Below are positions 500 to 16,763 of a stretch of 20,614 bases of DNA, piece after piece. Below the pieces are notes generated by a model. The model ran no database searches, was not told where the DNA came from, and was given only the letters and a program-made list of their open reading frames with translations. How positions within the stretch are numbered: the stretch's first letter is position 1; each line of letters begins with the position of its first letter. The translations under genes and the position numbers were made by a program. The DNA is taken from IMG/VR virus record IMGVR_UViG_3300034418_002410, positions 1 through 20,614 of that record; one strand, written 5' to 3'. Source of the stretch: a virus.

Positions 500-1114
500 A
501 TGGCGGCTGGTGATACCAAACTATCAATATGTTCTGAAGCACTAATTATGCTTGGGGCGGCTCCGCTCTCATCATTCGCCGATGGCACTGATGAGGCGCA
601 AGTCGCAGATCGTCTTTATGGTGATGTGCGCGACACTCTCTTAATGCAATACCCTTATTCTTGGTCGGTTAAAAAAGTAAAGCTGGCGCGTCTTGTCGCT
701 GCCCCCATCAATGAATGGAAATATAACTTTACTCTGCCCGGCGATATCCTTGGAAACCCAAAGGCCGTATTTAATAATGGCAATGTCGGCGCAAGATCAG
801 TGCGCGAGTTTGAAATTTACAGCGGCGGCATTTTCTCCGATTACGAAGAAATCTGGATCGACTACCAGTTCCGGCCAGAGCCTGCCCTATTCCCGCCATA
901 CTTTGTGCGGCTGTTAAAGACGGCGCTTGCATCAGAATTTGCCGAGCCAATTACAGATCAGACCACCAAGGCAGAATATTATCACACCAAGGCATATGGT
1001 TCAGCCGCTGAAAATATGCGCGGCGGTCTGGTGCGCGTAGCCATCAACATTGACGGCGCTGACAGACCAGCGCAGCAAATCCAAGAGTTTCCGATTTCAG
1101 ACATAAGGTTCTAG
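500..1114 (+). CDS. Tail adaptor / tail tubular protein A (T7 gp11-like)
   Basis: A 204-residue protein close to the length of T7 gp11 (196). The ATG at 500 has GGAG at 489-492. Diagnostic features are the N-terminus (LSICSEALIMLG), the Asp/Glu-rich helix with a DVRDTLL motif about residues 35-50, the YPYSWSVKKVKLARL segment at about 52-66, and the LPGDILGNPKAVF strand near 80. In this family these belong to the helical bundle and beta insertions of the ring of twelve subunits that joins portal to nozzle. The C-terminus (QEFPISDIRF) is short and polar. The nozzle gene follows at one base spacing, as expected for gp11-gp12 pairs, so the two are translated together. Confidence 0.9.
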   Translation: MAAGDTKLSICSEALIMLGAAPLSSFADGTDEAQVADRLYGDVRDTLLMQYPYSWSVKKVKLARLVAAPINEWKYNFTLPGDILGNPKAVFNNGNVGARSVREFEIYSGGIFSDYEEIWIDYQFRPEPALFPPYFVRLLKTALASEFAEPITDQTTKAEYYHTKAYGSAAENMRGGLVRVAINIDGADRPAQQIQEFPISDIRF

Positions 1115-1115
1115 C

Positions 1116-3323
1116 ATGAGCCGGATCATTCAGATACAAAATGATTTCACGGCTGGCGAGCTTGATCCAAAGCTGAGAGCGCGTACTGATTTGGCTCAGT
1201 ATAAGTCTGGCCTGTCTACAGCGCGAAACATCACAGTCCAACCGCAGGGCGGCGCAAAGCGGCGTGACGGCAGTAAGTTTATCACGGCATTAGACAGCGG
1301 CGCGGCAGATGCAGTGCGGATGGTTTCGTTTGAGTTTAGCATCGCCGACAGCTATATATTGGTATTCACGCCCGGCAAAATGTATGTGTTTAAGGATGGC
1401 GTGTTAATCACTGACATTAATGGCAGCGGCAATGACTATTTGACTGTCGCCAGCCTAACCAGCGCAATTTTGCCTGAGATGAACTGGGTGCAGTCAGCCG
1501 ACACTGTTATTGTGGTGCATGAGGATTTAGCGCCTGTCAAGATTGTGCGCGGCGCGACTGACAGCGACTGGACAGCCAGCGTTATTGCTTTTGATTTTAT
1601 CCCTAAATACGCATACACGATAACTACTTTAAGCCCAGACTTTACCATTACACCTGACGGCACAACCGGCAACGTCACGCTTACCGCGTCAGCAGTTACA
1701 ACTGACAATGGCACGGCGCAGGGCGGCTCATCGACTACAATTATATTGAAGGCTGCAACCAGCTACACGACTGACGATGCGTGTAATGGTTTTTCTCTGC
1801 ACATTACGGCTGGCACTGGCTCTGGTCAGCATAGGCTTGTGTCTGATTATGTGGCGGCAACAAAAACAGCCACAGTGTCCAAGGCGTTTGACACAGCGCC
1901 TGATGCAACCAGCCAATATGAAATTAAAGCGTGGGGCGAAAACAGCGTTGATGAATATGTAAACGCTGTTAATGGCTTTGGCCGCGCTAGAATTACAGAG
2001 TATGTCAGCAATACAGTCGTTAAGGCTTACGTTGAAATCCCATTTTTTGACACTGATGACATTGTTGCCGGTGACTGGGAAATAGAAAATGGTTACGAGG
2101 ACGTGTGGTCGGCGACTAGAGGCTATCCGCGCTCGGTTACTTTCCACGAGGGTCGCTTGTATTTCGGCGGCACTAAGAGCAGACCGTCAACATTGTTTGG
2201 CTCTCGCGTCTCTGACTTTTTTAACTTTAACCCCGGCGAGGCTCTGGACGATGCGGCTGTTAGTGCAACGCTAGACACCGGCACATTTAACGCAATCATA
2301 GATATTTTCTCTGGGCGTCACTTGCAGATATTTACCAGTGGCGCTGAGTTCTATGTGCCGCAGACGCTAGACACGCCAATCACGCCGAGCAACCTGATCG
2401 TCAAGCAGCAGACTGCCTTTGGCATGAAGGCTGGCATCCGCTTGCAGAACGTGGACGGCTCGACCTTGTTTGTGCAAAGACAGGGCAAGGCGCTGCAAGA
2501 GTTCTTGTTCAGTGACACGGTGCAGGCTTACACGTCAGCCAAGATTTCGCTGCTGTCATCGCATCTGCTGAAAAACCCCGAAGAAATGGCAGTGCGTGTC
2601 GCCACATCAACTGATGAGGGTGACCGGCTGATGATCGTGAATGGCGATGATGGCACGATTGCCTGCTATACTTTGCTGCGCAGCCAGAACGTCATCGCGC
2701 CGTCAGAGTGGACGACAGACGGCGAGTATATAAATATCGGCGTTGACGTTGATGACATTTACACTGTGGTAAAGCGCACAGTAAATGGCGCGGCTGTTTA
2801 TTACGTTGAGTTATTCGATGCTGATATTCTGGTTGACTGCGCCATAACCGGCGGCGCGGCAAGCTCAGTGAATGTGACGCATCTTGAGGGCAAGACTATT
2901 AATATTATCCGCGATGGCGTCCACGAGCCAACGCAAGTTGTGCCAGCGTCACCTTACACCGTGACGTTTGCGCGGCCAGCCACTGCCAGCTACGAGGTTG
3001 GTCTGAACTTTACGCCGGAGATCAAGACGCTGCCGGTCGAGCCTAACCTTGCCAGCGGCTCACTCAAGGGCTTTAAGAAGCGTATCTTTGAGGTAAATGC
3101 CGAATTATTTGCCACGCAGTCATTAACGATTGACGGCAAATCTGTGTCATTTAGAAACTTTGGCACAAATGTTCTTGACAGTTCAGTGCAGGAGTTTACT
3201 GGACTAAAGACATTACACGGTATTTTAGGTTATACTTACGATGGTCAAATCACAATCGGTCAAGACGTGCCATTAAAAATGACACTGCTTGGCCTCGATT
3301 ATAAAGTTAGTGTAGGACAATAA
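1116..3323 (+). CDS. Tail nozzle / tail tubular protein B (T7 gp12-like)
   Basis: A 735-residue protein, similar in size to T7 gp12 (794). The N-terminus is highly characteristic: IQIQNDFTAGELDPKLRART, then ARNITVQPQGGAKRRDGSKF at about residues 36-55. This family forms the hexameric beta-propeller nozzle at the tip of the short tail, the conduit for DNA and the platform for fibres. The rest is beta-rich, with the TRGYPRSVTFHEGRLYFGGT segment near residue 335-354, a conserved blade of the propeller. The ATG at 1116 lies one base after the adaptor stop, with AAGG at 1104-1107. The gene continues the + strand virion operon without a gap. Confidence 0.9.
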   Translation: MSRIIQIQNDFTAGELDPKLRARTDLAQYKSGLSTARNITVQPQGGAKRRDGSKFITALDSGAADAVRMVSFEFSIADSYILVFTPGKMYVFKDGVLITDINGSGNDYLTVASLTSAILPEMNWVQSADTVIVVHEDLAPVKIVRGATDSDWTASVIAFDFIPKYAYTITTLSPDFTITPDGTTGNVTLTASAVTTDNGTAQGGSSTTIILKAATSYTTDDACNGFSLHITAGTGSGQHRLVSDYVAATKTATVSKAFDTAPDATSQYEIKAWGENSVDEYVNAVNGFGRARITEYVSNTVVKAYVEIPFFDTDDIVAGDWEIENGYEDVWSATRGYPRSVTFHEGRLYFGGTKSRPSTLFGSRVSDFFNFNPGEALDDAAVSATLDTGTFNAIIDIFSGRHLQIFTSGAEFYVPQTLDTPITPSNLIVKQQTAFGMKAGIRLQNVDGSTLFVQRQGKALQEFLFSDTVQAYTSAKISLLSSHLLKNPEEMAVRVATSTDEGDRLMIVNGDDGTIACYTLLRSQNVIAPSEWTTDGEYINIGVDVDDIYTVVKRTVNGAAVYYVELFDADILVDCAITGGAASSVNVTHLEGKTINIIRDGVHEPTQVVPASPYTVTFARPATASYEVGLNFTPEIKTLPVEPNLASGSLKGFKKRIFEVNAELFATQSLTIDGKSVSFRNFGTNVLDSSVQEFTGLKTLHGILGYTYDGQITIGQDVPLKMTLLGLDYKVSVGQ

Positions 3324-3324
3324 G

Positions 3325-3825
3325 ATGGCAGCAGTTATTCCAGCAGTGATGGCGTCAGTATCAGCAGCCCCAGCATTATATGCAGTTGCTGGCCTTCAAG
3401 CCGTTACTGGCATGATGGCAGCAAGAGCGCAGGCCAAAGGCTACGCGGCGCAGGCAACTATGGCGCGGATGCAAGGCGCACAAGAGGCGCTCAAGTATAA
3501 GCAGCAAGGTGTGCAAGTTCTGGATAATATTTTGCGCACACAATCCGCAGTCACTGCTAGGGCAGCGGCGGGCGGCATTGACCCATTCAGCGGCAGTGCT
3601 GGTGCGCTTAACCAGTATGCTATGGCGAAGGGCGCAGAAGAGCTTTACACGACCCGCGAAGGTCAGGTTATTGCCAGACGCGGCGGCGAGATGAAGGCAG
3701 GCCAGCTTATGTCTGCGGCTAAAAGCACAATGGCACAAGGGCTTGTTGGTGCGGCTACAGCATTTGGCGGTGCTTACTCAACGCAGAGCCTGATTGGCGG
3801 TCAGCAGACGTTAGGTACGGTTTAA
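3325..3825 (+). CDS. Internal virion protein, small (T7 gp14-like position)
   Basis: A 166-residue Ala/Gly/Gln-rich protein. The N-terminal 35 residues are hydrophobic and alanine-rich (PAVMASVSAAPALYAVAGLQ), followed by a helical region with AQAKGYAAQATMARMQGAQE at about 36-55 and a conserved-looking AAAGGIDPFSGSAGALN segment near 85-101. In T7-like phages the gene after the nozzle is the small ejection protein gp14 (196 aa), inserted into the outer membrane during infection; length, alanine-rich hydrophobic start and location match that role. No sequence signature proves it. It begins one base after the nozzle stop and overlaps the next gene by a single base (TAATG at 3823-3827). Confidence 0.7.
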   Translation: MAAVIPAVMASVSAAPALYAVAGLQAVTGMMAARAQAKGYAAQATMARMQGAQEALKYKQQGVQVLDNILRTQSAVTARAAAGGIDPFSGSAGALNQYAMAKGAEELYTTREGQVIARRGGEMKAGQLMSAAKSTMAQGLVGAATAFGGAYSTQSLIGGQQTLGTV

Positions 3826-5537
3826 TGGCAGAGCTTCCTAGATATCGCCCACTAGGCGCAGCAATACCGTCAATGCCAAGCGTTGACCTGACTGTCGCTG
3901 GCCGTGCGCAGGCTGGCGTATTTAGGGAAGTATCACGCGGCTTAGACGTGATGTCTCAATATCTCACAAAGACGGCAGAGTTTGCCGCTTTGGCAGAAGG
4001 CCAGCGTTACGGCGCTGAAAACGCTCCAACGCAGGCGCAGCTTGATGAGGCTAAGAAAGAGGGCGCAGACATTTCGGCAATGCTGCCCGGCGATGATTAT
4101 ACGGTGTTTGGGCGCAGCGCTAGAAAAACATCGCTTGATGTTATTACTGATCAGTCTGAGATGGCAGCGCGTCAAGCGCTGACTGCATTGCGCCTTGAGG
4201 CAGATCAGACAGATATGCCAGCCGCTGAATTGAGCGCCAAGATCAACGGCCTGATTTCGGGATATTCTAGCAATCTGTCTCAACTCAACCCAGCGGTCGG
4301 CTCAAAGTTCCAAGCGGCTATGTCAACTGTCGGTAACACGGCGCTGTTGTCACACTCGCAGTCACTAGCAAAAAAAGCAGAAAAACAGCAAGAGGTTGTC
4401 GCGCTTGGCGCGATTGATAGTATTATTAACGATACATTGCCTGACATTATCCGCGCTGGCTCAACAATCAATCAGCAAACAGGAGAGTTGGTTTCTATTC
4501 AGCAAAAGATTGAACTTGAGCGCGACCGCATATTTAAATTTAGCTACGCTATTGGCGACAAGGCATTGGCTAATCAACAGATTAAAATATTTGATGAAGC
4601 AGTATTAAAGGCAAAAGTTGGTGCGGTTACAGATTTTGTGGCTGAAGACCCGATGAAGAACTTTAATGCCTTGCGCCTCGGAAAGACAGTCTCTGACCCA
4701 CATATTCAAGATGTTATTAACAATCTCGATGAGACAGAGCGCCGCGCAGCATTAAAGGCGGCGCGTGACCAGATCAGCAGCGAGCTTTCGCTTGATGCGT
4801 CTATTGAAAGCGCCAATGAGCGCAAGCGTACTCAGGGTGCAGAAGCGCTATTGCCCTCAATACAAGACGCAATCCAAGCCGGTAATACACCAGAGGTTGA
4901 TCGTTTGATTGGCGTAATGGAATTGCTTGATCCAAAGCTGGCATACTCAACCGGCAATGCTATTTATTCTGAGGGCGGCGTTGATGATCCGCAGATTGTT
5001 GATGGATTGCGTATGCGGCAAGCTCGCGGTGATTTGACAATCAATGATGTCAATGAGGCGCGTAGTGCGGGCGGTTTGGGCAGAACAACATATAATGATT
5101 TCTTGTCTAAGGTCGGCGCACAAAATGATGCAGATCATAAAGACGCGATGACAATTGTAAAAAATACTTTGAACCCTATGCCGTCAATTATGCCGGGCAA
5201 GGCAGAAAAACAAGCCAATATTAAAATTGGAAATATTGAAACAAGGCTAATTAAAGCGCAGCGCAAAGCAAAAAAGCAGGGTATTGAGTTCGATCCATTT
5301 GACTTTGTTGAAAAAGAATTAAAGTCGATTGGCGACACCAAATATTCAACAGAAGATGTTTCAGATGCAAAGGCAAAAGTGGCAGAATTGCGCATAAAAC
5401 TTGGCCTTGATGCAACCGCAAGCACTACAGCTTTGCGCTCCAAGATGATGATGGCTATTGAAGGTGGCGACAAGGGTTTGTTTACAGATAGCGCAAAATA
5501 TAATGATGCCCTAGATGTCTTGGAGGCAACACAATAA
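3825..5537 (+). CDS. Internal virion protein (T7 gp15-like position)
   Basis: A 570-residue, mainly helical, charged protein with no signal peptide or membrane segment. It starts in a TAATG overlap with the preceding gene and ends in another TAATG overlap at 5535-5539, so translation is coupled on both sides. The N-terminus (RYRPLGAAIPSMPSVD) is a proline-containing arm of a kind I recall at the start of internal core proteins of marine podoviruses; the remainder is repeated amphipathic helix (for example EKQQEVV near 186-192 and AKKQGIEFDPFDFVEKELK near 483-501). By position it is the middle ejection protein, which would extend the tail channel across the periplasm. Function is inferred from order and composition. 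Confidence 0.65.
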   Translation: MAELPRYRPLGAAIPSMPSVDLTVAGRAQAGVFREVSRGLDVMSQYLTKTAEFAALAEGQRYGAENAPTQAQLDEAKKEGADISAMLPGDDYTVFGRSARKTSLDVITDQSEMAARQALTALRLEADQTDMPAAELSAKINGLISGYSSNLSQLNPAVGSKFQAAMSTVGNTALLSHSQSLAKKAEKQQEVVALGAIDSIINDTLPDIIRAGSTINQQTGELVSIQQKIELERDRIFKFSYAIGDKALANQQIKIFDEAVLKAKVGAVTDFVAEDPMKNFNALRLGKTVSDPHIQDVINNLDETERRAALKAARDQISSELSLDASIESANERKRTQGAEALLPSIQDAIQAGNTPEVDRLIGVMELLDPKLAYSTGNAIYSEGGVDDPQIVDGLRMRQARGDLTINDVNEARSAGGLGRTTYNDFLSKVGAQNDADHKDAMTIVKNTLNPMPSIMPGKAEKQANIKIGNIETRLIKAQRKAKKQGIEFDPFDFVEKELKSIGDTKYSTEDVSDAKAKVAELRIKLGLDATASTTALRSKMMMAIEGGDKGLFTDSAKYNDALDVLEATQ

Positions 5538-7369
5538 TGCCTAATTTTGAAAATGAATTTATGAAAACCATCATTGCAAATGATAGCGGTTTGCCCAGCG
5601 CTATTGAATTGCAAGCAGATGGCACGTCTGTTTTGCGTACTATTGACCCGACTGCTGAGACTTTGGGTATGGCTGATGTGTTTGGCGGCGGTGTGAAACC
5701 TGACATCTACGCGCTGTCAGAGGCTGCCGGTGCGCCTGTTACTGAGGCAGAGGTCGCTGGCACTATGAGCGGCGTAGTTCCCGGCGCTGCTATTGGCGCA
5801 GCAACTGCTATTCCTGATATTGCGGCTCTGGTTAAAGGCGGTGTGCAAGCGGCGACTGCCGAAGAGGGTAGCCGCATTGAGGAGTTCCTAAAGGGATTTA
5901 GCAGCATCTCTGGCGTCATTGGGTCAGAGAAAGCGTTTGAGCTTTATGATGCTGGCGTTGATATGTTGCCAATTAGCGATGAGGCCAAGCAGGGATTGAA
6001 GCAAGGCGCATTGGTTGGTGAGGTTATTGGCTTTGGCACTGGCGCTAAGAAAGGCGCAGAGGCTGTCGGTGGATATGTAGAGGGCGCACCAGCGCGGCTA
6101 GAAGAGGCCAAGAGCGGCGTTACGCTTGGTATGGGTGTCGATCCTATGACTGTGCTTGATGAGACTATTGTGGCTATGTCAAAGAAAACACCGCCTGCCA
6201 AGAACAGTGATTTAATAAATGTATTAAATTTACGCGCAGATCAAATGAAATTAAGCCCAAAAGATCGTATTCAGCCATCTGGTCAAAACCCATTATTTGA
6301 CACAACGCCAGATGCGTATCAAAGAAATTTGCCAGAACAAATTGAAACACCAGTGCCGCGTGCGCCAGAAGGCGCAAAACTACCTTTAGGCAACAGAGCT
6401 GCCAAAGTTGTGGAAATGACACCGCAAATCGCAGATAAACTTGCTGAAAAAATGCGCCCATATCTTGGCACTCCAGCGCAGTATTTTTATAACACCGGCC
6501 CCATTATTGACAAGGCTGTAGGGTTAGGTGTGCCTGAAGATATTGCGCGAAAGCAGTTAAAAAGATTTGCTCTCAACTATGCGGCGACAAGCCCAAGAAC
6601 ACAAACAGAGCCAAACCTAAGAAGCGCGTCAATTGTGTCTGCTAAAGAAACGCAAGGCATAAATTATGATGAAATTGTTGGGCCGGGTGGCGAAGGCATA
6701 AATGAAAAAGGTTATCCAATGATGATCCAGCCCGCCTCTCCGGGCAAGGCAGAAGGTATTCATAGGAAACTTATTGAGGCTGTTCGCGCTGGTGGTATTG
6801 ATTACAATACAAATCCGAAGCCAGCAACATTTGCCGAAAATGTTACCGGGAACCTTGCTGGTGTCACTGTTGATACCCACGCAATTCGCGGCGCTCTTGA
6901 TGCTATGAACGAGGTAGAACCCGGATCAATTCCAGAAGGTTTTATTGCTAAAGAGTTTAGAGAGCAATATAAGGCAGACCCATCTACATTCAATCCAGCC
7001 ACAATGGTCATTGATACGCTTGGAGATCAAAAAGTTGGTGGCGTAAAGATGCAAACAGAATATGCCGTGTTTAGTGATCTTTACAAAGAAGCTGCCAAAA
7101 AGTTAAATGTATCGCCAGCAGAGGCGCAAGCACTTGGCTGGTTTGGCAGTGGCAAAAGAACTGGCCTCGCGTCAGACCTAAAAACTGTTGCTGATCTTAT
7201 TGATGAGCGCGTTGATGTAACAGCGCAGGCGCTTAACAGACCAAAAGAGGAAGTGTTTATTGATTTCTTCTCTGGTAAAATACCGTTGTTGTCGCTTGGC
7301 GGTCTAACATTGCTAGACACAGGCGCAATAACAGACAATCAGGAAGGCGCAGACGATGGCAATATCTAA
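5537..7369 (+). CDS. Internal virion protein with HhH-GPD/DNA-glycosylase-like domain
   Basis: A 610-residue protein that looks like two parts. Residues 1-215 are Gly/Ala-rich with weakly hydrophobic helices (GVVPGAAIGAATAIPDIAAL, 79-98). Residues about 290-540 resemble a phage family I recall as DUF7178-like, related to HhH-GPD glycosylases: an ALNYAATSPRTQTEPNL segment at 345-361, a PKPATFAENVTGN segment at 427-439, VTVDTHAIRGAL at 443-454 (compare VDTH in endonuclease III), and YKEAAKKLNVSPAEAQALGW at 516-535. The start overlaps the previous stop (TAATG), and the last 14 bases overlap the next gene. GC drops from 39/60 at 6061-6120 to 21/60 at 6181-6240, close to the domain boundary, which suggests acquisition of the second part. 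Ejection with the DNA would deliver the domain to the host; enzymatic activity is unproven. Confidence 0.6.
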   Translation: MPNFENEFMKTIIANDSGLPSAIELQADGTSVLRTIDPTAETLGMADVFGGGVKPDIYALSEAAGAPVTEAEVAGTMSGVVPGAAIGAATAIPDIAALVKGGVQAATAEEGSRIEEFLKGFSSISGVIGSEKAFELYDAGVDMLPISDEAKQGLKQGALVGEVIGFGTGAKKGAEAVGGYVEGAPARLEEAKSGVTLGMGVDPMTVLDETIVAMSKKTPPAKNSDLINVLNLRADQMKLSPKDRIQPSGQNPLFDTTPDAYQRNLPEQIETPVPRAPEGAKLPLGNRAAKVVEMTPQIADKLAEKMRPYLGTPAQYFYNTGPIIDKAVGLGVPEDIARKQLKRFALNYAATSPRTQTEPNLRSASIVSAKETQGINYDEIVGPGGEGINEKGYPMMIQPASPGKAEGIHRKLIEAVRAGGIDYNTNPKPATFAENVTGNLAGVTVDTHAIRGALDAMNEVEPGSIPEGFIAKEFREQYKADPSTFNPATMVIDTLGDQKVGGVKMQTEYAVFSDLYKEAAKKLNVSPAEAQALGWFGSGKRTGLASDLKTVADLIDERVDVTAQALNRPKEEVFIDFFSGKIPLLSLGGLTLLDTGAITDNQEGADDGNI

Positions 7370-10220
7370 CGTCACAGAAGAACAGATTGACATCCTGACC
7401 GGCACACCAGCCGAGCCAGCCCTTGAGCCTGTTCCAGAGACCGCAATCAGCGATCCACTTGTGACTGATGCCGCCATCGCTCCTGAAGCAATCCCAGTGC
7501 CTGAGATTGATCCAGAGGGTGTGCAAGTTGCCGGTCTGAAGGATGACATTGTTACCGGCATCGCCAAGCGCGTAGCTGCGGCTGAAAAAAAGGTTATACC
7601 GCCGCTGCCTGATAAGCCGGTGCAGGACATTGGTGGTCAGTTAATTGTGCGTGAGGCCAGTCCAGAAGAGGTCGCCGACTTTAACAGGGCGGCTGGCGGC
7701 GAATACACCAAAGGAATTAACTTTCCACAGATTGCCGAGAACCTTGGCGACTTTGATATGGGTCAATATATTGATCAGATCAAAACATCAAACGCTGAAC
7801 TTTTTGAAAAAGCCAGACGCGGCACACTTAATTTTGATGCGCTGCTAAAACTAGCAGAAAACCAAGGCGCAGATAATCTTGTAGTTGAGTGGCTGCAACG
7901 CTCGCCCGGCGATGGCGAGACTGCCGAGAAAGTTCTGGGCGGTATGCTTGCGGCTATGCAAACATCCAAAGAAACACAGAACGCATTTGAATTAGCGCGT
8001 GGCCTGCCTGTTGGTGATGAGCGCACAGCCGCACTTGCCAAGGCAAAGCAGTTAATGACTGTTGAGGCTATGCTTTACGCTAACCTATCAGGCGCAGGCT
8101 CAGAAGCTGGACGCACAATGTATATGCTGCGTGAGGCGCAGCGGCGTTTAGGCGCTGAGAATGTTGGCGAAAGGGCTGACGAGCTAATCAATCTGTTTGG
8201 CGCAGAAAATGCGCAAGACCTAGAATATTTGGGCGATTTATATTTGGCATTGCCAAAGAACGCTCGCGGCAGATTTGTGCAGCAGGGGCTTGGCGCAAAG
8301 ACTATGGACGTTATCGCCGAGGTATGGATCAACAGCATCTTAACATCACCGGCCACGCATATGGTCAACATTGCCGGTAACTCTATGTTCTACGGCACTA
8401 GAATGGCTGAGACTGCTTTGGCTGGCACAGTGGGAAAGGCGCGTACTGCACTTGGCCTTGGCGGCAAAGAGCGCGTCAGGACACGCGAGGCGCTGATCCA
8501 GATGCAGGCGATCCAAGAAAGCTGGAAGGACGCGCTAACCGTAGCAGGAAAGACATTGCTGACAGAAGAAACTGGCGATGTTGCGTCTAAGATTGATTTG
8601 CGTAATCGCCGTGCTATTGGCACGACAGGCGATCCGCGTATGCTCATGCAAAAAATCAGGCAAGGCAACTTTGGCGCTGCCGCTGTCAATGCGCTGGGCA
8701 TCTATTTTCGCCTCGGTGGCCGTTTCTTGCTGGCAGAGGATCAGTTCTTTAAGGGCATTGGCTATCGCTCCGCATTGCGTCAGGACGCATACACACGCGG
8801 GGCTAATATGTATGACCAAGCCATTGAGGCTGGCAAGACCGCAGATGAGGCCAAGGCTGCCGCAGCGGCAGAAGAGGCTCGCATCTTAACAAACCCGCCT
8901 GTTGGTATTGTTGAGAACGCACAAGACGCGGCGCGTGAATTGACGTTCCAAGGCGATCTGCCGGGCAGATTTGGACAGGATGCTTTCTCGCATCCAGTGG
9001 CAAAACTATTTGTGCCGTTCTACAAGACACCAATGAACATTATGAAAGAAACCGCAAAGCGCAGCCCACTGATGCTGGCCTATCCCGGCTTTTATAAAAA
9101 GATTGCCGCTGGTGGCCGTCAGGCTGATATGGCTATTGCGCAGTTCTCTATGGGTTCGCTGATTATGGGTGGCTTTGCCGCCACATCAATGGGTCTCGAT
9201 ACAGCAGAGCAAAATGTCATCATTATGGGTTCAGGCCCAACAGACCCAAAAGCCAAGCAGGCAATGCAGCGCAAAAAAATGCAGCAATTTTCTGTGAACA
9301 TCAAGCAAGAGGACGGCACATATCTGTCTATCCCTTACTCGCGGCTTGACCCTATTTCTGGAATGTTGGCTATGTCTGCTGACTTTGCGTATTACGCGCA
9401 ATATGAAGATGACCAGTCTGTCTTGGATAGCCTTGCTATGGCTGCGACACTGGGCATTTCGCAATACGCTATGGAAATGCCTTTCTTGCAGGGCGTGTCT
9501 GAGTTGACTGCTATATTCCGCAATCCTGATCCCAAGGTTATGGCTGATGAATTTATGAAAATGCTGGGCGAAAAACCGACTGAGGCAGTCTTGTCTCTTG
9601 CGCCCGGCGTGTCATCATTTAGCGCGGGCATTGAGCGTATGCAAGACCCAACTGTTAGCTCTTACTTGTTGCCAGAGGATTTGGGCGATCCGACACAAAT
9701 GCCAGCGTTTATGCGCGGCTTTTATACTGCGCTGCAAAAAGCAAAGGCTCGCCATCCATTCTTTAGTGATCAAGTGCCGCCACGTCTCAACTTGTGGGGT
9801 GAGAAAATGCAAGCTGGCGAGGGTACAGGCTGGGAGTTTGTTTCGCCTATCCGCATCCAGCAAACCAAATATGCGCCTGTTGATGACGAACTTATGCGGC
9901 TCGGTGGCGGCGTTCCTATGCACCCCAAGAAGATTGACGGCGTTGTGCTTAGTGCCGAGCCTTACAATGAGTGGGTCACACTAACCAATCAGCTTGACAG
10001 TGAAGGCAAGCTGCCCGGTCAAAAGGGCTATGATGTAACGTCTACCTTGCTGCCAACATTGGCAAAAGAAATAAAAGGCAAGGAATACAAGACAGAATTA
10101 ACAGATGATGACCGGCTGGATTACATTAGAAGCATTGTCGGATTATATCGCAAGGCTGCCAAGAATATCTTGCTTGAGGCTAATCCTGATTTGGCGAAAC
10201 GAGTGTTAGCAGTACAATAG
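7356..10220 (+). CDS. Large internal virion / DNA-ejection protein (T7 gp16-like position)
   Basis: A 954-residue protein, the largest in the window. The ATG at 7356 has an AGGAAGG site at 7341-7347 inside the preceding gene. Residues 1-60 are an acidic Pro/Glu/Ala arm. The motif WINSILTSPATHMVNIAGNS (324-343) is typical of large phage polyvalent and ejection proteins, as is the preceding GSEAGRTMYMLREAQRRLG (248-266). A later stretch, PVAKLFVPFYKTPMNIMKE (about 548-566), is followed by a hydrophobic, Gly-rich segment near 592-614 that could enter a membrane. Size and last position among the core genes suggest the gp16 role of spanning the inner membrane to pull in DNA. Unlike T7 gp16, no lytic-transglycosylase signature is visible. 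Confidence 0.7.
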   Translation: MAISNVTEEQIDILTGTPAEPALEPVPETAISDPLVTDAAIAPEAIPVPEIDPEGVQVAGLKDDIVTGIAKRVAAAEKKVIPPLPDKPVQDIGGQLIVREASPEEVADFNRAAGGEYTKGINFPQIAENLGDFDMGQYIDQIKTSNAELFEKARRGTLNFDALLKLAENQGADNLVVEWLQRSPGDGETAEKVLGGMLAAMQTSKETQNAFELARGLPVGDERTAALAKAKQLMTVEAMLYANLSGAGSEAGRTMYMLREAQRRLGAENVGERADELINLFGAENAQDLEYLGDLYLALPKNARGRFVQQGLGAKTMDVIAEVWINSILTSPATHMVNIAGNSMFYGTRMAETALAGTVGKARTALGLGGKERVRTREALIQMQAIQESWKDALTVAGKTLLTEETGDVASKIDLRNRRAIGTTGDPRMLMQKIRQGNFGAAAVNALGIYFRLGGRFLLAEDQFFKGIGYRSALRQDAYTRGANMYDQAIEAGKTADEAKAAAAAEEARILTNPPVGIVENAQDAARELTFQGDLPGRFGQDAFSHPVAKLFVPFYKTPMNIMKETAKRSPLMLAYPGFYKKIAAGGRQADMAIAQFSMGSLIMGGFAATSMGLDTAEQNVIIMGSGPTDPKAKQAMQRKKMQQFSVNIKQEDGTYLSIPYSRLDPISGMLAMSADFAYYAQYEDDQSVLDSLAMAATLGISQYAMEMPFLQGVSELTAIFRNPDPKVMADEFMKMLGEKPTEAVLSLAPGVSSFSAGIERMQDPTVSSYLLPEDLGDPTQMPAFMRGFYTALQKAKARHPFFSDQVPPRLNLWGEKMQAGEGTGWEFVSPIRIQQTKYAPVDDELMRLGGGVPMHPKKIDGVVLSAEPYNEWVTLTNQLDSEGKLPGQKGYDVTSTLLPTLAKEIKGKEYKTELTDDDRLDYIRSIVGLYRKAAKNILLEANPDLAKRVLAVQ

Positions 10221-10271
10221 ACGTTGAGTAACAAATGGGTTATAATCCCAGCATTGAGATGAGGCAAACAT
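10221..10271 (+). other. Short intergenic gap before the fibre cassette
   Basis: A 51-base gap, unusual in this tightly packed block. It contains a perfect TATAAT (10241-10246) inside a small TGGG/CCCA inverted repeat, and a GAGG ribosome-binding site (10261-10264) for the fibre ATG at 10272. A TTGAGT at 10224-10229 stands only 11 bases from TATAAT, too close for an ordinary -35. It may be a weak promoter or simply a leader; evidence is thin. Confidence 0.3.
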
Positions 10272-12419
10272 ATGGCTGATTACAACATTAACGCAATTAC
10301 GCGCCGCGTGGTTTACACTGGCTCTGCCGGGCTGGGGCCATATGCGTTTTCGTTTGAGGTCATCGACCAAGCTGACGTTGGGGTGTATTTCAACCAGACG
10401 CTGTTAACGCTCTCCAGCGACTACACAGTCACAATCAATGCCAACGGCACTGGCAGCGTCAACATCATCACTGGCGGCAACGTGCCGTCAACCCCAACGG
10501 CCAATGATACAGTCATCATTATCGGCGCCAGAGACATTGAGCGCACGACAGACTTTGTGACTGCCGGTGACTTGCTCGCGTCTAGCCTCAATGAGCAACT
10601 CGACAGCAACATTATCTTTGAGCAGCAGATTGACGAGCGCGTTGACCGCTCAATTAAATTCCCTGTTTACGACAGCTTCACTGGCGACAATGTATTGCCA
10701 GCCGCTGCGACACGCGCCGACAAAATCCTCAAGTTCGATAGCTCTGGCAATATCGCCGTAGAAAGCGCATCAGCCTTGTTTGGTGGCGCAGTGGTGGGTG
10801 CTAACTTTACCAACAACACATTCACTGGCGATGGCTCTCAGACAGCCTTTACGACAACTGTAGAAGCTGGATCAAAGAACAACGCACAAGTCTACATTGA
10901 TGGCGTTTACCAGCTAAAGTCTAGCTTCTCTGTGTCTGGCACAACTCTGACATTCACCGAGGCTCCGCCGCTTAACTCGCAGATCGAGGTTATCATTGGT
11001 AATGCTATTGATACTGTTGATGCTGACAGCGGCAATGTGAATTACAACCAAGGCGGCACTGGCGCACAAACCCGCACAGTCGAGAACAAGCTGCAAGAGT
11101 TTGTTTCGGTCAAAGACTTCGGTGCTGTCGGTGATGGTGTGGCGGATGACACTGCGGCTATTCAGGCTGCGATTGATGCTGCTGACAAGGTGTTTTTTCC
11201 TGCTGGCACATACCAGTGCAGCAACATCCAGATTGATGGTGGGACAGAAAGCGCTGGAGGCAAAAGCATCGATGCCTCGTTGGCAAGCATTGTCAACGAA
11301 GCTGGCGATGGCAACTCTCTGTTTGTTATCGGCGCATCGAGTGCTGTAAACTTTCTGACGTTCAAAGGGCATCGCCTTCGTGTTGGTTCTGGCGGCGGTC
11401 ATGTGTTCGACATTCAAGGCACAATGAACCATTCGCAAATTGACGTTGATTATATCCGTCAGGTCGAAACCACAAAGAGCATCATCAATCATAACAACAC
11501 CAGCTTTTTCTTCAATAAAGTGAAGGGGCTTTTCTGGGCTATCAGCACCAGCCACACTGTCCCAGCCATTCGGTTTTCGTCCACATCAAACCTTGTCAGC
11601 GCCAACGAGTTTGACATTCTGCGCCCTGATCGCAGCGGCACTCGTCACTTTATGGAACTTCTCAGCACTTCTGCCTCGGATTACAATTACAGCAACCGCA
11701 TCTCGCTGCGAAACCCAGAAGTTTGCGGCGGTGGCGTGCTGAAAATACAGCGGGCGTTTAACACCATCGTTGATCAGATGCACTGCTTTGATACGGGAAC
11801 CACGGTCAACCACATGATTGAGGTTGGCGTGTCTGGCTTCCTTTGCCAAAACACCAAGATCAGGGATTACCAGCGCAACAGCGGCACACTCGGTTCTGGC
11901 CTTGTTGACATCTTCTTGGGCGATGCAAACTACACCTACATTGAGGCAGCGTCTGGCGTGTCTGCTTCAACGACCATTGAGATCGACATCAATAACGAGC
12001 CAAACACCATCATCACGGGTGCTGCGTTCTACAACGTATCCAACCCTGTTGCATCCAGCACGCTATTGCTTACGGCAGATGAAGGCGTATCAACGCCAAA
12101 ATTGCTGCTCACGCCGCAGTCAAGTATTTTGACCGTTGCATCTGGCGTTATCACGGCAACCGACAGTGTGCATCGTGTCGATACTGAAGCTGCTGCGGCA
12201 TCTGATGACTTGGATACTATCAACGGAGGCTCGGATGGTTATGTGCTGATCCTGAGAACCTCTGTCAATTCAAGGGATGTGACGCTGAAGGATGGCACAG
12301 GCAACCTGTATTTGGCAGGCGACTTCACGCTTTCTCATACCCAAGACACAATCATGCTGCGGTTTGACGCACTCATCAATGGATGGGTCGAAGTCTCTCG
12401 CAGCGACAATGAGACATAA
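10272..12419 (+). CDS. Tail fibre/tailspike: T7 fibre anchor plus pectate-lyase-fold domain
   Basis: A 715-residue receptor-binding protein of four visible parts. Residues about 4-131 match the T7 tail-fibre N-terminal domain that binds the nozzle/adaptor (start ADYNINAITRRVVYTGSAG, later ARDIERTTDF, a DLLASSLNEQLDSNIIFEQQ helix and ERVDRSIKFP). Residues about 178-243 form a small beta domain (FTGDGSQTAFT, VYIDGVYQ, LTFTEAPP) common in phage fibres. From about 277 the sequence FVSVKDFGAVGDGVADDTAA opens a pectate-lyase-superfamily beta-helix with AIDAADKVFFPAGTYQCS. The last 60 residues (LYLAGDFTLSHTQDT, NGWVEVSRSDNE) are a C-terminal beta domain often shared between fibres. It probably binds or degrades a surface polysaccharide; no catalytic residues could be assigned. 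Confidence 0.9.
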   Translation: MADYNINAITRRVVYTGSAGLGPYAFSFEVIDQADVGVYFNQTLLTLSSDYTVTINANGTGSVNIITGGNVPSTPTANDTVIIIGARDIERTTDFVTAGDLLASSLNEQLDSNIIFEQQIDERVDRSIKFPVYDSFTGDNVLPAAATRADKILKFDSSGNIAVESASALFGGAVVGANFTNNTFTGDGSQTAFTTTVEAGSKNNAQVYIDGVYQLKSSFSVSGTTLTFTEAPPLNSQIEVIIGNAIDTVDADSGNVNYNQGGTGAQTRTVENKLQEFVSVKDFGAVGDGVADDTAAIQAAIDAADKVFFPAGTYQCSNIQIDGGTESAGGKSIDASLASIVNEAGDGNSLFVIGASSAVNFLTFKGHRLRVGSGGGHVFDIQGTMNHSQIDVDYIRQVETTKSIINHNNTSFFFNKVKGLFWAISTSHTVPAIRFSSTSNLVSANEFDILRPDRSGTRHFMELLSTSASDYNYSNRISLRNPEVCGGGVLKIQRAFNTIVDQMHCFDTGTTVNHMIEVGVSGFLCQNTKIRDYQRNSGTLGSGLVDIFLGDANYTYIEAASGVSASTTIEIDINNEPNTIITGAAFYNVSNPVASSTLLLTADEGVSTPKLLLTPQSSILTVASGVITATDSVHRVDTEAAAASDDLDTINGGSDGYVLILRTSVNSRDVTLKDGTGNLYLAGDFTLSHTQDTIMLRFDALINGWVEVSRSDNET

Positions 12420-15858: not shown

Positions 15859-16335
15859 TTGGATCCAATTACCATAGGCGCAGCCATCAGCGGGGCTACA
15901 GCGGCGTTTAATACTATAAAGCAGATGGTTTCTGCCGGGCGTGACCTTGAAAGCTGTATAGGCGACGTGTCTCGCTGGATGAAGGCCGCGTCTGACATTG
16001 ATCAGGCTGAGAAACAAGCGAAGAACCCGCCACTATTTAAGCGCCTGCAAGGGGCAGACACAGTGCAACAGCAGGCGCTGCAAGTCTACGCCGCCAAGAA
16101 GCGGCTTGAGGCGCAACGTGCGGAGCTTAAACAGTATCTGCAAATGACGTATGGCCCGCAGGCTTGGGCTGACCTGATCCAGCTAGAGGGGCGCATCAGA
16201 AAAGAACGACAGGAGATGATTTACAAACAGCAAGAGGCGCGTCAGAAGATCATCGAGGCTATTGCTATTTTGGCGTTAGGCATTGTATCTTTTGGTATAT
16301 TTTTTTGGGTTATATGGTTGGCGTCTAAAAATTGA
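15859..16335 (+). CDS. Coiled-coil protein with C-terminal membrane anchor, TTG start
   Basis: A 158-residue protein beginning at TTG 15859, supported by AAGGAG at 15846-15851 seven bases upstream. The N-terminus (DPITIGAAISGATAAFNTIK) is a mildly hydrophobic helix; residues about 65-130 are a charged helix or coiled coil rich in Gln, Glu, Arg and Lys; residues about 131-154 (IIEAIAILALGIVSFGIFFW onward) are a single membrane helix ending in WLASKN. It would be a tail-anchored inner-membrane protein with its bulk in the cytoplasm, or the reverse if the N-terminal helix also inserts. I recall relatives in other marine phages, all uncharacterised. Its place between small exported proteins and endolysin suggests a lysis-related or late membrane role; spanin identity is not supported. 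Confidence 0.65.
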   Translation: MDPITIGAAISGATAAFNTIKQMVSAGRDLESCIGDVSRWMKAASDIDQAEKQAKNPPLFKRLQGADTVQQQALQVYAAKKRLEAQRAELKQYLQMTYGPQAWADLIQLEGRIRKERQEMIYKQQEARQKIIEAIAILALGIVSFGIFFWVIWLASKN

Positions 16336-16763
16336 GCGAGACCCGCACTGGACTGATTGGTGAGCATTTTGCTGCCGGGGCAATATTGTCGATGGGCTGG
16401 GCTTACGCCCCAGCGGCGCAAGATAAGATTGACGGTGTGGCTATCTCGAATAGCGACAATACTATATTGAGGATACAGGTAAAGACGGCCTCATACTTAT
16501 TGCAAAAAGGTAAGGTAAAAAGAGCGTATCACTTTCAACTTGGGTCTGGATGCTCGGCAAAGCATTTACCGCGAAACACAAAGGAATGGGCAGACTATGA
16601 CATACTTGTATTGTGTGGCAAAGAGCATCGAAGCTGCTTATTTTACCACGTCTCCCAAATACAACAGTACAGCAAGCGGCTCCAAGGCTCGGCGTTTACA
16701 CGCGAGGCTGAAGAAGATAGCTGGCTCAAGGCTGTCGCGCTGGCTAAAGAAATGAGGCTGTGA
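16332..16763 (+). CDS. PD-(D/E)XK-type nuclease
   Basis: A 143-residue protein with a TTG start at 16332 overlapping the previous stop (TTGA). The N-terminal half fits the PD-(D/E)XK fold: TGLIGEHFAAGAILSMGW has Glu11 in the GEH motif, Asp34 lies in KIDGVAI, and RIQVKTA supplies Gln49-Val-Lys51. The G-x-x-GE helix, D, then Q-x-K order is that of a group including the I-Ssp6803I-like homing enzymes and Hjc-like resolvases, where Gln replaces the second acidic residue. Length is normal for a stand-alone domain. It could trim replication intermediates, degrade host DNA or act as a free-standing homing enzyme. Lying between a membrane protein and the endolysin is an odd place for a nuclease. Substrate unknown. 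Confidence 0.7.
   Translation: MSETRTGLIGEHFAAGAILSMGWAYAPAAQDKIDGVAISNSDNTILRIQVKTASYLLQKGKVKRAYHFQLGSGCSAKHLPRNTKEWADYDILVLCGKEHRSCLFYHVSQIQQYSKRLQGSAFTREAEEDSWLKAVALAKEMRL

Follow-up and report, generated by a model that had tools for sequence, protein, structure and literature searches.

The DNA analyzed here is a 20.6-kb virus fragment, from a marine phage (IMG/VR record IMGVR_UViG_3300034418_002410, positions 1 to 20,614), the whole of which we call the window. Its gene of interest encodes a 610-amino-acid (aa) protein, the carrier, which is flanked by a 570-aa protein upstream and a 954-aa protein downstream. Judged by PHROGs matches and synteny, the neighboring genes follow the order of a T7-like core, with tail tubular proteins A and B succeeded by the gp14, gp15, and gp16 positions (Table 1). 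An initial annotation had described the carrier as an open reading frame (ORF) at 5537-7369, with VTVDTHAIRGAL at residues 443 to 454, lying between core proteins. The ORF and the motif are both as it gave them, and the placement is borne out by a gp14-like protein upstream (phrog_418, a weak match) and a gp16-like protein downstream (phrog_6651). The stop of the carrier gene (7369) overlaps the start of the gp16-position gene (7356) by 14 bases and, because the two ORFs overlap, there is no immunity gene between them of the kind expected next to a polymorphic toxin. NCBIfam and PADLOC searches gave no matches.

Table 1. The carrier gene, its parts, and the adjoining core genes (positions in the window)
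Feature	Position	Strand	Basis
Tail tubular protein A-like	500..1114	+	phrog_394, E 3e-31
Tail tubular protein B-like	1116..3323	+	phrog_376, E 3e-132
T7 gp14-like internal virion protein	3325..3825	+	phrog_418, E 9e-4 (weak)
570-aa protein, gp15 position	3825..5537	+	Conserved synteny; no Pfam match
Carrier, 610 aa, ATG start, third core-type gene	5537..7369	+	ORF; order kept in relatives
N-terminal conserved module, residues ~1-213	5537..6175	+	Common to 51/62 unique slot proteins; no PHROG match
Module/cargo recombination junction	6174..6181	+	DNA comparison with L059
Cargo: DUF7178 type A domain with predicted HhH-GPD DNA-glycosylase fold, residues ~225-601	6209..7339	+	Pfam, AF2, VIA-align
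Codon of K428, predicted Schiff-base lysine	6818..6820	+	Invariant in three subtypes
Codon of D446, predicted catalytic aspartate within VDTH	6872..6874	+	Invariant in three subtypes
954-aa internal virion protein, gp16 position	7356..10220	+	phrog_6651, E 1e-30

The carrier divides into an N-terminal module, whose end is marked by the motif GVTLGMGVDPxxxxDExIVA, and a C-terminal part, its cargo. A Pfam search assigns the whole protein to DUF7178 (PF23802) with 36.7 bits, where the curated threshold is 27, as the initial annotation had proposed, although the domain extends over residues ~225-600 instead of the 290-540 suggested there. A first scan of viral contigs yielded 62 loci, most of which matched the carrier from about residue 225 onward. 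The domain alignment has 37 members, each of which matches DUF7178 in Pfam. Two loci (L059 and L060) match at residues 3-216 only, at 85%; the differing C terminus of L059 is also a DUF7178 domain (97 bits), which we named type B to set it apart from the type A domain of the carrier (an alignment of 51 sequences). Type B relatives are encoded in 179 stretches, and stand-alone ("solo") DUF7178 proteins of ~200 aa occur in at least 169 phage records and more than 550 viral stretches. The three subtypes are homologous by hhalign (A-B, E 4.7e-9; A-solo, E 1e-8; B-solo, E 2e-32). DUF7178 is mostly a phage family, since it was not found in 14 control genomes or in 297 of the 299 genomes of one bacterial phylum. 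We found no mention of it in the open-access papers searched. One type B domain lies within a ~3,100-aa protein of Rhodobacteraceae phage LS06-2018-MD07 (L146:1010-10309) that was deposited as a methyltransferase.

The fold of this domain is the all-helical, two-domain HhH-GPD fold of the EndoIII/Ogg type, established at the level of structure prediction. Structure prediction had been set by the initial annotation as the test of its endonuclease III-like proposal, and the outcome agrees with it. An AlphaFold2 (AF2) model of residues 225-610, built with 37 sequences, reached a predicted local distance difference test (pLDDT) score of 86.6 and a predicted template modeling score of 0.85. VIA-align ranked three Ogg2 enzymes at the top for the window domain, namely MjaOgg (Z 10.5, 177 aligned residues, 3.1 Å), TmOgg (Z 9.8), and SsOgg (Z 9.6), followed at lower scores by DUF2419 (Z 7.1), hOGG1 (6.4), AGOG (6.2), and the glycinyltransferase PUGT gp46 of phage PaMx11 (3.9). 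Chance can give helical proteins high scores, so an independent AF2 model of the stand-alone family was made (pLDDT 89.6). Its VIA-align matches were again headed by MjaOgg (Z 12.9), TmOgg (12.8), and SsOgg (12.6), with AGOG and EndoIII (both 10.3), MagIII (9.2), and OGG1 (9.1) behind them, and HhH-GPD glycosylases made up 50/50 among the matches listed. Foldseek likewise placed Ogg proteins in the first eleven rows for this model, with a probability of up to 0.98 (SsOgg).

The residues expected of a bifunctional HhH-GPD enzyme, an aspartate after the hairpin and a catalytic lysine, are present in the sequence of the carrier. K428 and D446 are invariant in all 177 sequences, comprising 51/51 of type A, 56/56 of type B, and 70/70 solo proteins. 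Type A also keeps S352, P353, N360, F432, N435, H448, Q531, and W535 in 51/51, and the invariance of K428, N435, D446, and H448 argues that the motif around D446 is not a product of chance. In the stretch NPKPATFAENVTGNLAGVTVDTHAIR, Lys428 and Asp446 are 18 residues apart, the same spacing as between the catalytic lysine and aspartate of MjaOgg, and PDB chains exist in which exactly these two MjaOgg residues are replaced (lysine by Q in 3knt; lysine by S and aspartate by N in 9o02/9o01). The cargo is under strong purifying selection, with a ratio of nonsynonymous to synonymous substitution rates (dN/dS) of 0.041 against L001. A canonical hairpin of the type LPGVGxxTA is absent; the window has NTNPKPATF at that place and the solo members have G.K..F, so we class the domain as a divergent, fold-level relative and not as a canonical HhH-GPD enzyme.

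The initial annotation, largely right otherwise, had missed that everything C-terminal to the module is cargo open to exchange. So as not to bias the sample, loci with the carrier's slot were collected through the gp16-like neighbor by means of a closer alignment (the 954-aa sequence alone gave no matches, and a broad alignment was too diverse). Of the 75 slots read, DUF7178 of type A, type B, or a solo-like kind was present in 17 and absent from 58. The window's N-terminal module is common to 51 of the 62 unique slot proteins, at E 1e-33 or better, and the C-terminal parts of 50 module-sharing slot proteins form eight cargo clusters (K0 to K7). DUF7178 types A and B constitute K0 (n = 10), K5 (n = 5) is DUF7178-like (hhalign to solo, E 3e-9), and K3 (n = 7) matches DUF7178 weakly, with the Lys-18-Asp motif seen in three members. 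All nine members of K2 match ART-PolyVal, an ADP-ribosyltransferase (ART)-like domain, with scores that lie near the cut-off or under it, while the sole K7 member carries a Zeta_toxin domain (54.7 bits; cut-off 22.3). Two clusters are without Pfam match, K4 (n = 5; e.g., L409 and L413), which matches phrog_2563, and K6 (n = 4; e.g., L366). The nine members of K1 share NKxxSFxxLVxGRxDVxVxDR, with the Lys-18-Asp spacing in 9/9, and give a suggestive Ogg2 match. Their cargo (L367:3674-5779 and eight relatives) is ~490 aa long and contains GIDNKVVSFILLVAGRDDVLVMDRIQ; K1 is possibly a second HhH-GPD family that has no Pfam entry.

The exchange can be read in the DNA itself. Comparison with L059 gives 92.7% identity for positions 5642-6173 of the window, after which the two sequences are unrelated as far as 7355, the last base ahead of the next gene. 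Against L001 the pattern is reversed: the cargo (5977-7337) is 91.2% identical, and most of the module does not share this identity. The start of the tail fiber gene (10241-11098) is also 91% identical to L001, while the preceding core gene is at ~68% or has no detectable similarity, from which it follows that the fiber and the cargo have a recent history of exchange in common with L001. The initial annotation had pointed to a fall in GC from 39/60 to 21/60 at about 6180, near the domain boundary. Both values do occur, near 6120 and 6170, and the drop coincides with the module boundary from the DNA comparison. Taken alone it is weak evidence: between adjacent 60-base segments GC goes only from 28 to 21 at 6180, and a step of at least that size occurs at 23% of window positions. 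A quickly built tree of 48 modules, in which some branches are long, requires 29 or more changes of cargo type, where the least possible number is 7 and random labels give a mean of 33.0, which suggests that cargo swapping is close to free exchange. A conserved N-terminal module with exchanged C-terminal domains is the arrangement that defines polymorphic toxins and effectors.

The carrier occupies a fixed slot in two unrelated cassettes, each with type A in some members and type B in others. One is that of the window (tail tubular A, tail tubular B, gp14-like, 570-aa protein, carrier, gp16-like, fiber); the other, exemplified by Roseobacter phages CRP-212 and CRP-738, runs terS-terL-portal-carrier-scaffold-coat. 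A third gene order is seen in L069 and L140, where DUF7178 carriers lie upstream, not downstream, of a portal-like gene. In L027, the carrier starts with a Hydrolase_2 cell wall hydrolase fused to DUF7178. Type B is also found inside proteins of 1,900 to 3,400 aa with LPD38, LPD22, ART-PolyVal, C5 methylase, or GGDEF domains, combinations typical of polyvalent proteins, which are predicted to be injected (PMC5512222). The core-cassette position, the L027 fusion, and these giant proteins support the presumed presence of the carrier in the virion and its presumed ejection.

We consider it probable that the carrier is a polymorphic ejected effector of the T7-like core, a delivery chassis that in this phage bears a glycosylase/lyase payload. 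What the comparisons and models show is membership in DUF7178, the predicted fold, the invariant catalytic pair, the position in the core cassette, and the cargo exchange. The conserved N-terminal ~210 residues probably serve to position the carrier within the core and to bring it, along with the DNA, into the cell. The C-terminal part is the exchangeable cargo, here predicted to be a divergent HhH-GPD DNA glycosylase of DUF7178. We infer virion incorporation, ejection, base excision, and the target. The chemistry is likely to be that of Ogg2 and EndoIII: a base would be flipped out, D446 would activate K428, K428 would attack C1', and the base would leave, after which the strand may be nicked by beta-elimination. 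Most likely the cargo is a host-takeover or counter-defense effector, whose action on host DNA or competing DNA would fall in the opening minutes of infection. Such a role is favored over repair or a structural part because the slot also holds ADP-ribosyltransferase-like and Zeta-type kinase domains.

Several results weigh against this interpretation. Foldseek alone yields no E value below 0.001 for either the window domain or the stand-alone model, and it ranks TmOgg 19th for the former (E 0.68), an ambiguity that the stand-alone model removes. Against EndoIII/MutY, profile comparison falls short of significance (E 0.07-0.5), and against a small Ogg2 profile it is only suggestive (E 0.0018, score 28.4, against 23.7 for the best unrelated decoy). 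The canonical GhG hairpin is replaced by NPKP, so that DNA binding may differ, and the ART assignment of K2 rests on scores around or below the Pfam cut-off. The carrier does not match Pfam HhH-GPD in a Pfam-A search, a PDB sequence search with the window domain and the solo profile gave chance matches only, and a scan aimed at viral Ogg2 relatives found none.

Alternatively, the ejected glycosylase might repair oxidized or otherwise damaged bases of the incoming phage genome right after entry. Particles in water undergo oxidative and light damage, and 8-oxoguanine glycosylases are the closest folds. However, the domains that take the place of this cargo in other slot proteins include ART-like and Zeta-type ones, which are incapable of DNA repair, and repair would require host apurinic/apyrimidinic (AP) endonuclease and polymerase, with a nick in unreplicated linear DNA probably being risky; we regard this role as unlikely. 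Somewhat more doubtful still is that the fold serves another chemistry, either as a nucleotide N-glycosidase, as in queuine salvage by DUF2419, or in base hypermodification, as in PaMx11 PUGT. Both proteins are among the matches of the window domain, but they fall far below Ogg2, and neither is among the matches listed for the stand-alone model. Moreover, there is no Pfam match to hypermodification families, and no hypermodification genes are annotated in MJing1 or CRP-212, where many genes are unnamed. The least probable of the three is that the domain binds DNA without catalysis and helps to package or guide it in the core: HhH-GPD proteins without activity exist, such as Schizosaccharomyces pombe Mag2, which is among the matches of the stand-alone model, but the lysine and aspartate are invariant, dN/dS is low, and the slot works with unrelated cargo, so that DNA binding by DUF7178 is not needed for assembly.

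Among comparable known systems are the Ogg2 8-oxoguanine glycosylase/AP lyases (MjaOgg, 3fhf/3knt; SsOgg, 3fhg; TmOgg, 3n0u), with which the carrier shares the predicted fold, the Lys-Asp spacing, DxH after the aspartate, and a C-terminal SELDxxIWY-like helix (PAEAQxLGWF in the carrier). It differs from them in its ~11% identity, in lacking the GhG hairpin, and in its fusion to a virion module. The stand-alone phage proteins (DUF7178/phrog_3842) belong to the same family above the Pfam cut-off and have the same catalytic pair. A few carry the deposited label "glycosylase" or "N-glycosylase/DNA lyase" (Microbacterium phage Cece gp22, Synechococcus phage S-CRES3 gp63, and Mycobacterium phage DroogsArmy gp83 are deposited as glycosylases). 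They are solo proteins, whereas in the carrier the domain measures ~370 aa, has insertions, and is part of a core protein. The polyvalent proteins described by Iyer et al. 2017 (PMC5512222) are likewise multidomain and predicted to be injected with DNA, and some DUF7178 relatives reside in LPD38/ART-PolyVal giants; the carrier, in contrast, has one effector per protein, swapped in a fixed slot. The MuF polymorphic toxins of temperate phages (PMC5576092) also join a conserved N-terminal virion module to a variable C-terminal enzyme, but theirs is another module at another virion position, and the carrier, with no room for an immunity gene, is set apart from classical toxin-immunity systems. Neither paper has a glycosylase in its main text. 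The anti-phage DNA glycosylases Brig1 and Brig3 (PMC11078745, PMC13160076) resemble the carrier as DNA glycosylases in phage-host conflict but act on the host side. They belong to the uracil-DNA-glycosylase superfamily, not to HhH-GPD, and identity with a Brig1-type defense glycosylase was rejected on this ground.

Two further genes of the window adjoin each other, one for a 143-aa protein (16332-16763, plus strand) with a subthreshold match to a PD-(D/E)XK endonuclease (PDDEXK_5, 16.9 bits) and one for a phage lysozyme (16760-17212, plus strand; Pfam PF00959, 46 bits) that is likely the endolysin.

HhH-GPD glycosylases, DUF7178, and injected polyvalent and MuF proteins were already known; what is new, to the extent that we have checked, is a polymorphic effector slot that holds glycosylase payloads within the T7-like core. 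More generally, with confidence that is evenly balanced, we propose that this group of T7-like phages reserves a slot for polymorphic ejected effectors, made of one module and a freely exchanged enzyme. Glycosylase-fold enzymes from several subfamilies (K0 and K5, judged by homology, and K1 and K3, judged by motif) would be its commonest payload, excising bases of host or rival DNA at entry. DUF7178, with its hundreds of viral contigs, thereby gains a specific and testable candidate activity, that of a Lys-Asp glycosylase/lyase, and the idea of phage-injected effectors is extended to the internal core of T7-like phages. The shared module with its swapped cargo is a clean natural exchange experiment. 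If the proposal is true, the cargo readable from genomes would amount to a catalogue of early host-takeover enzymes.

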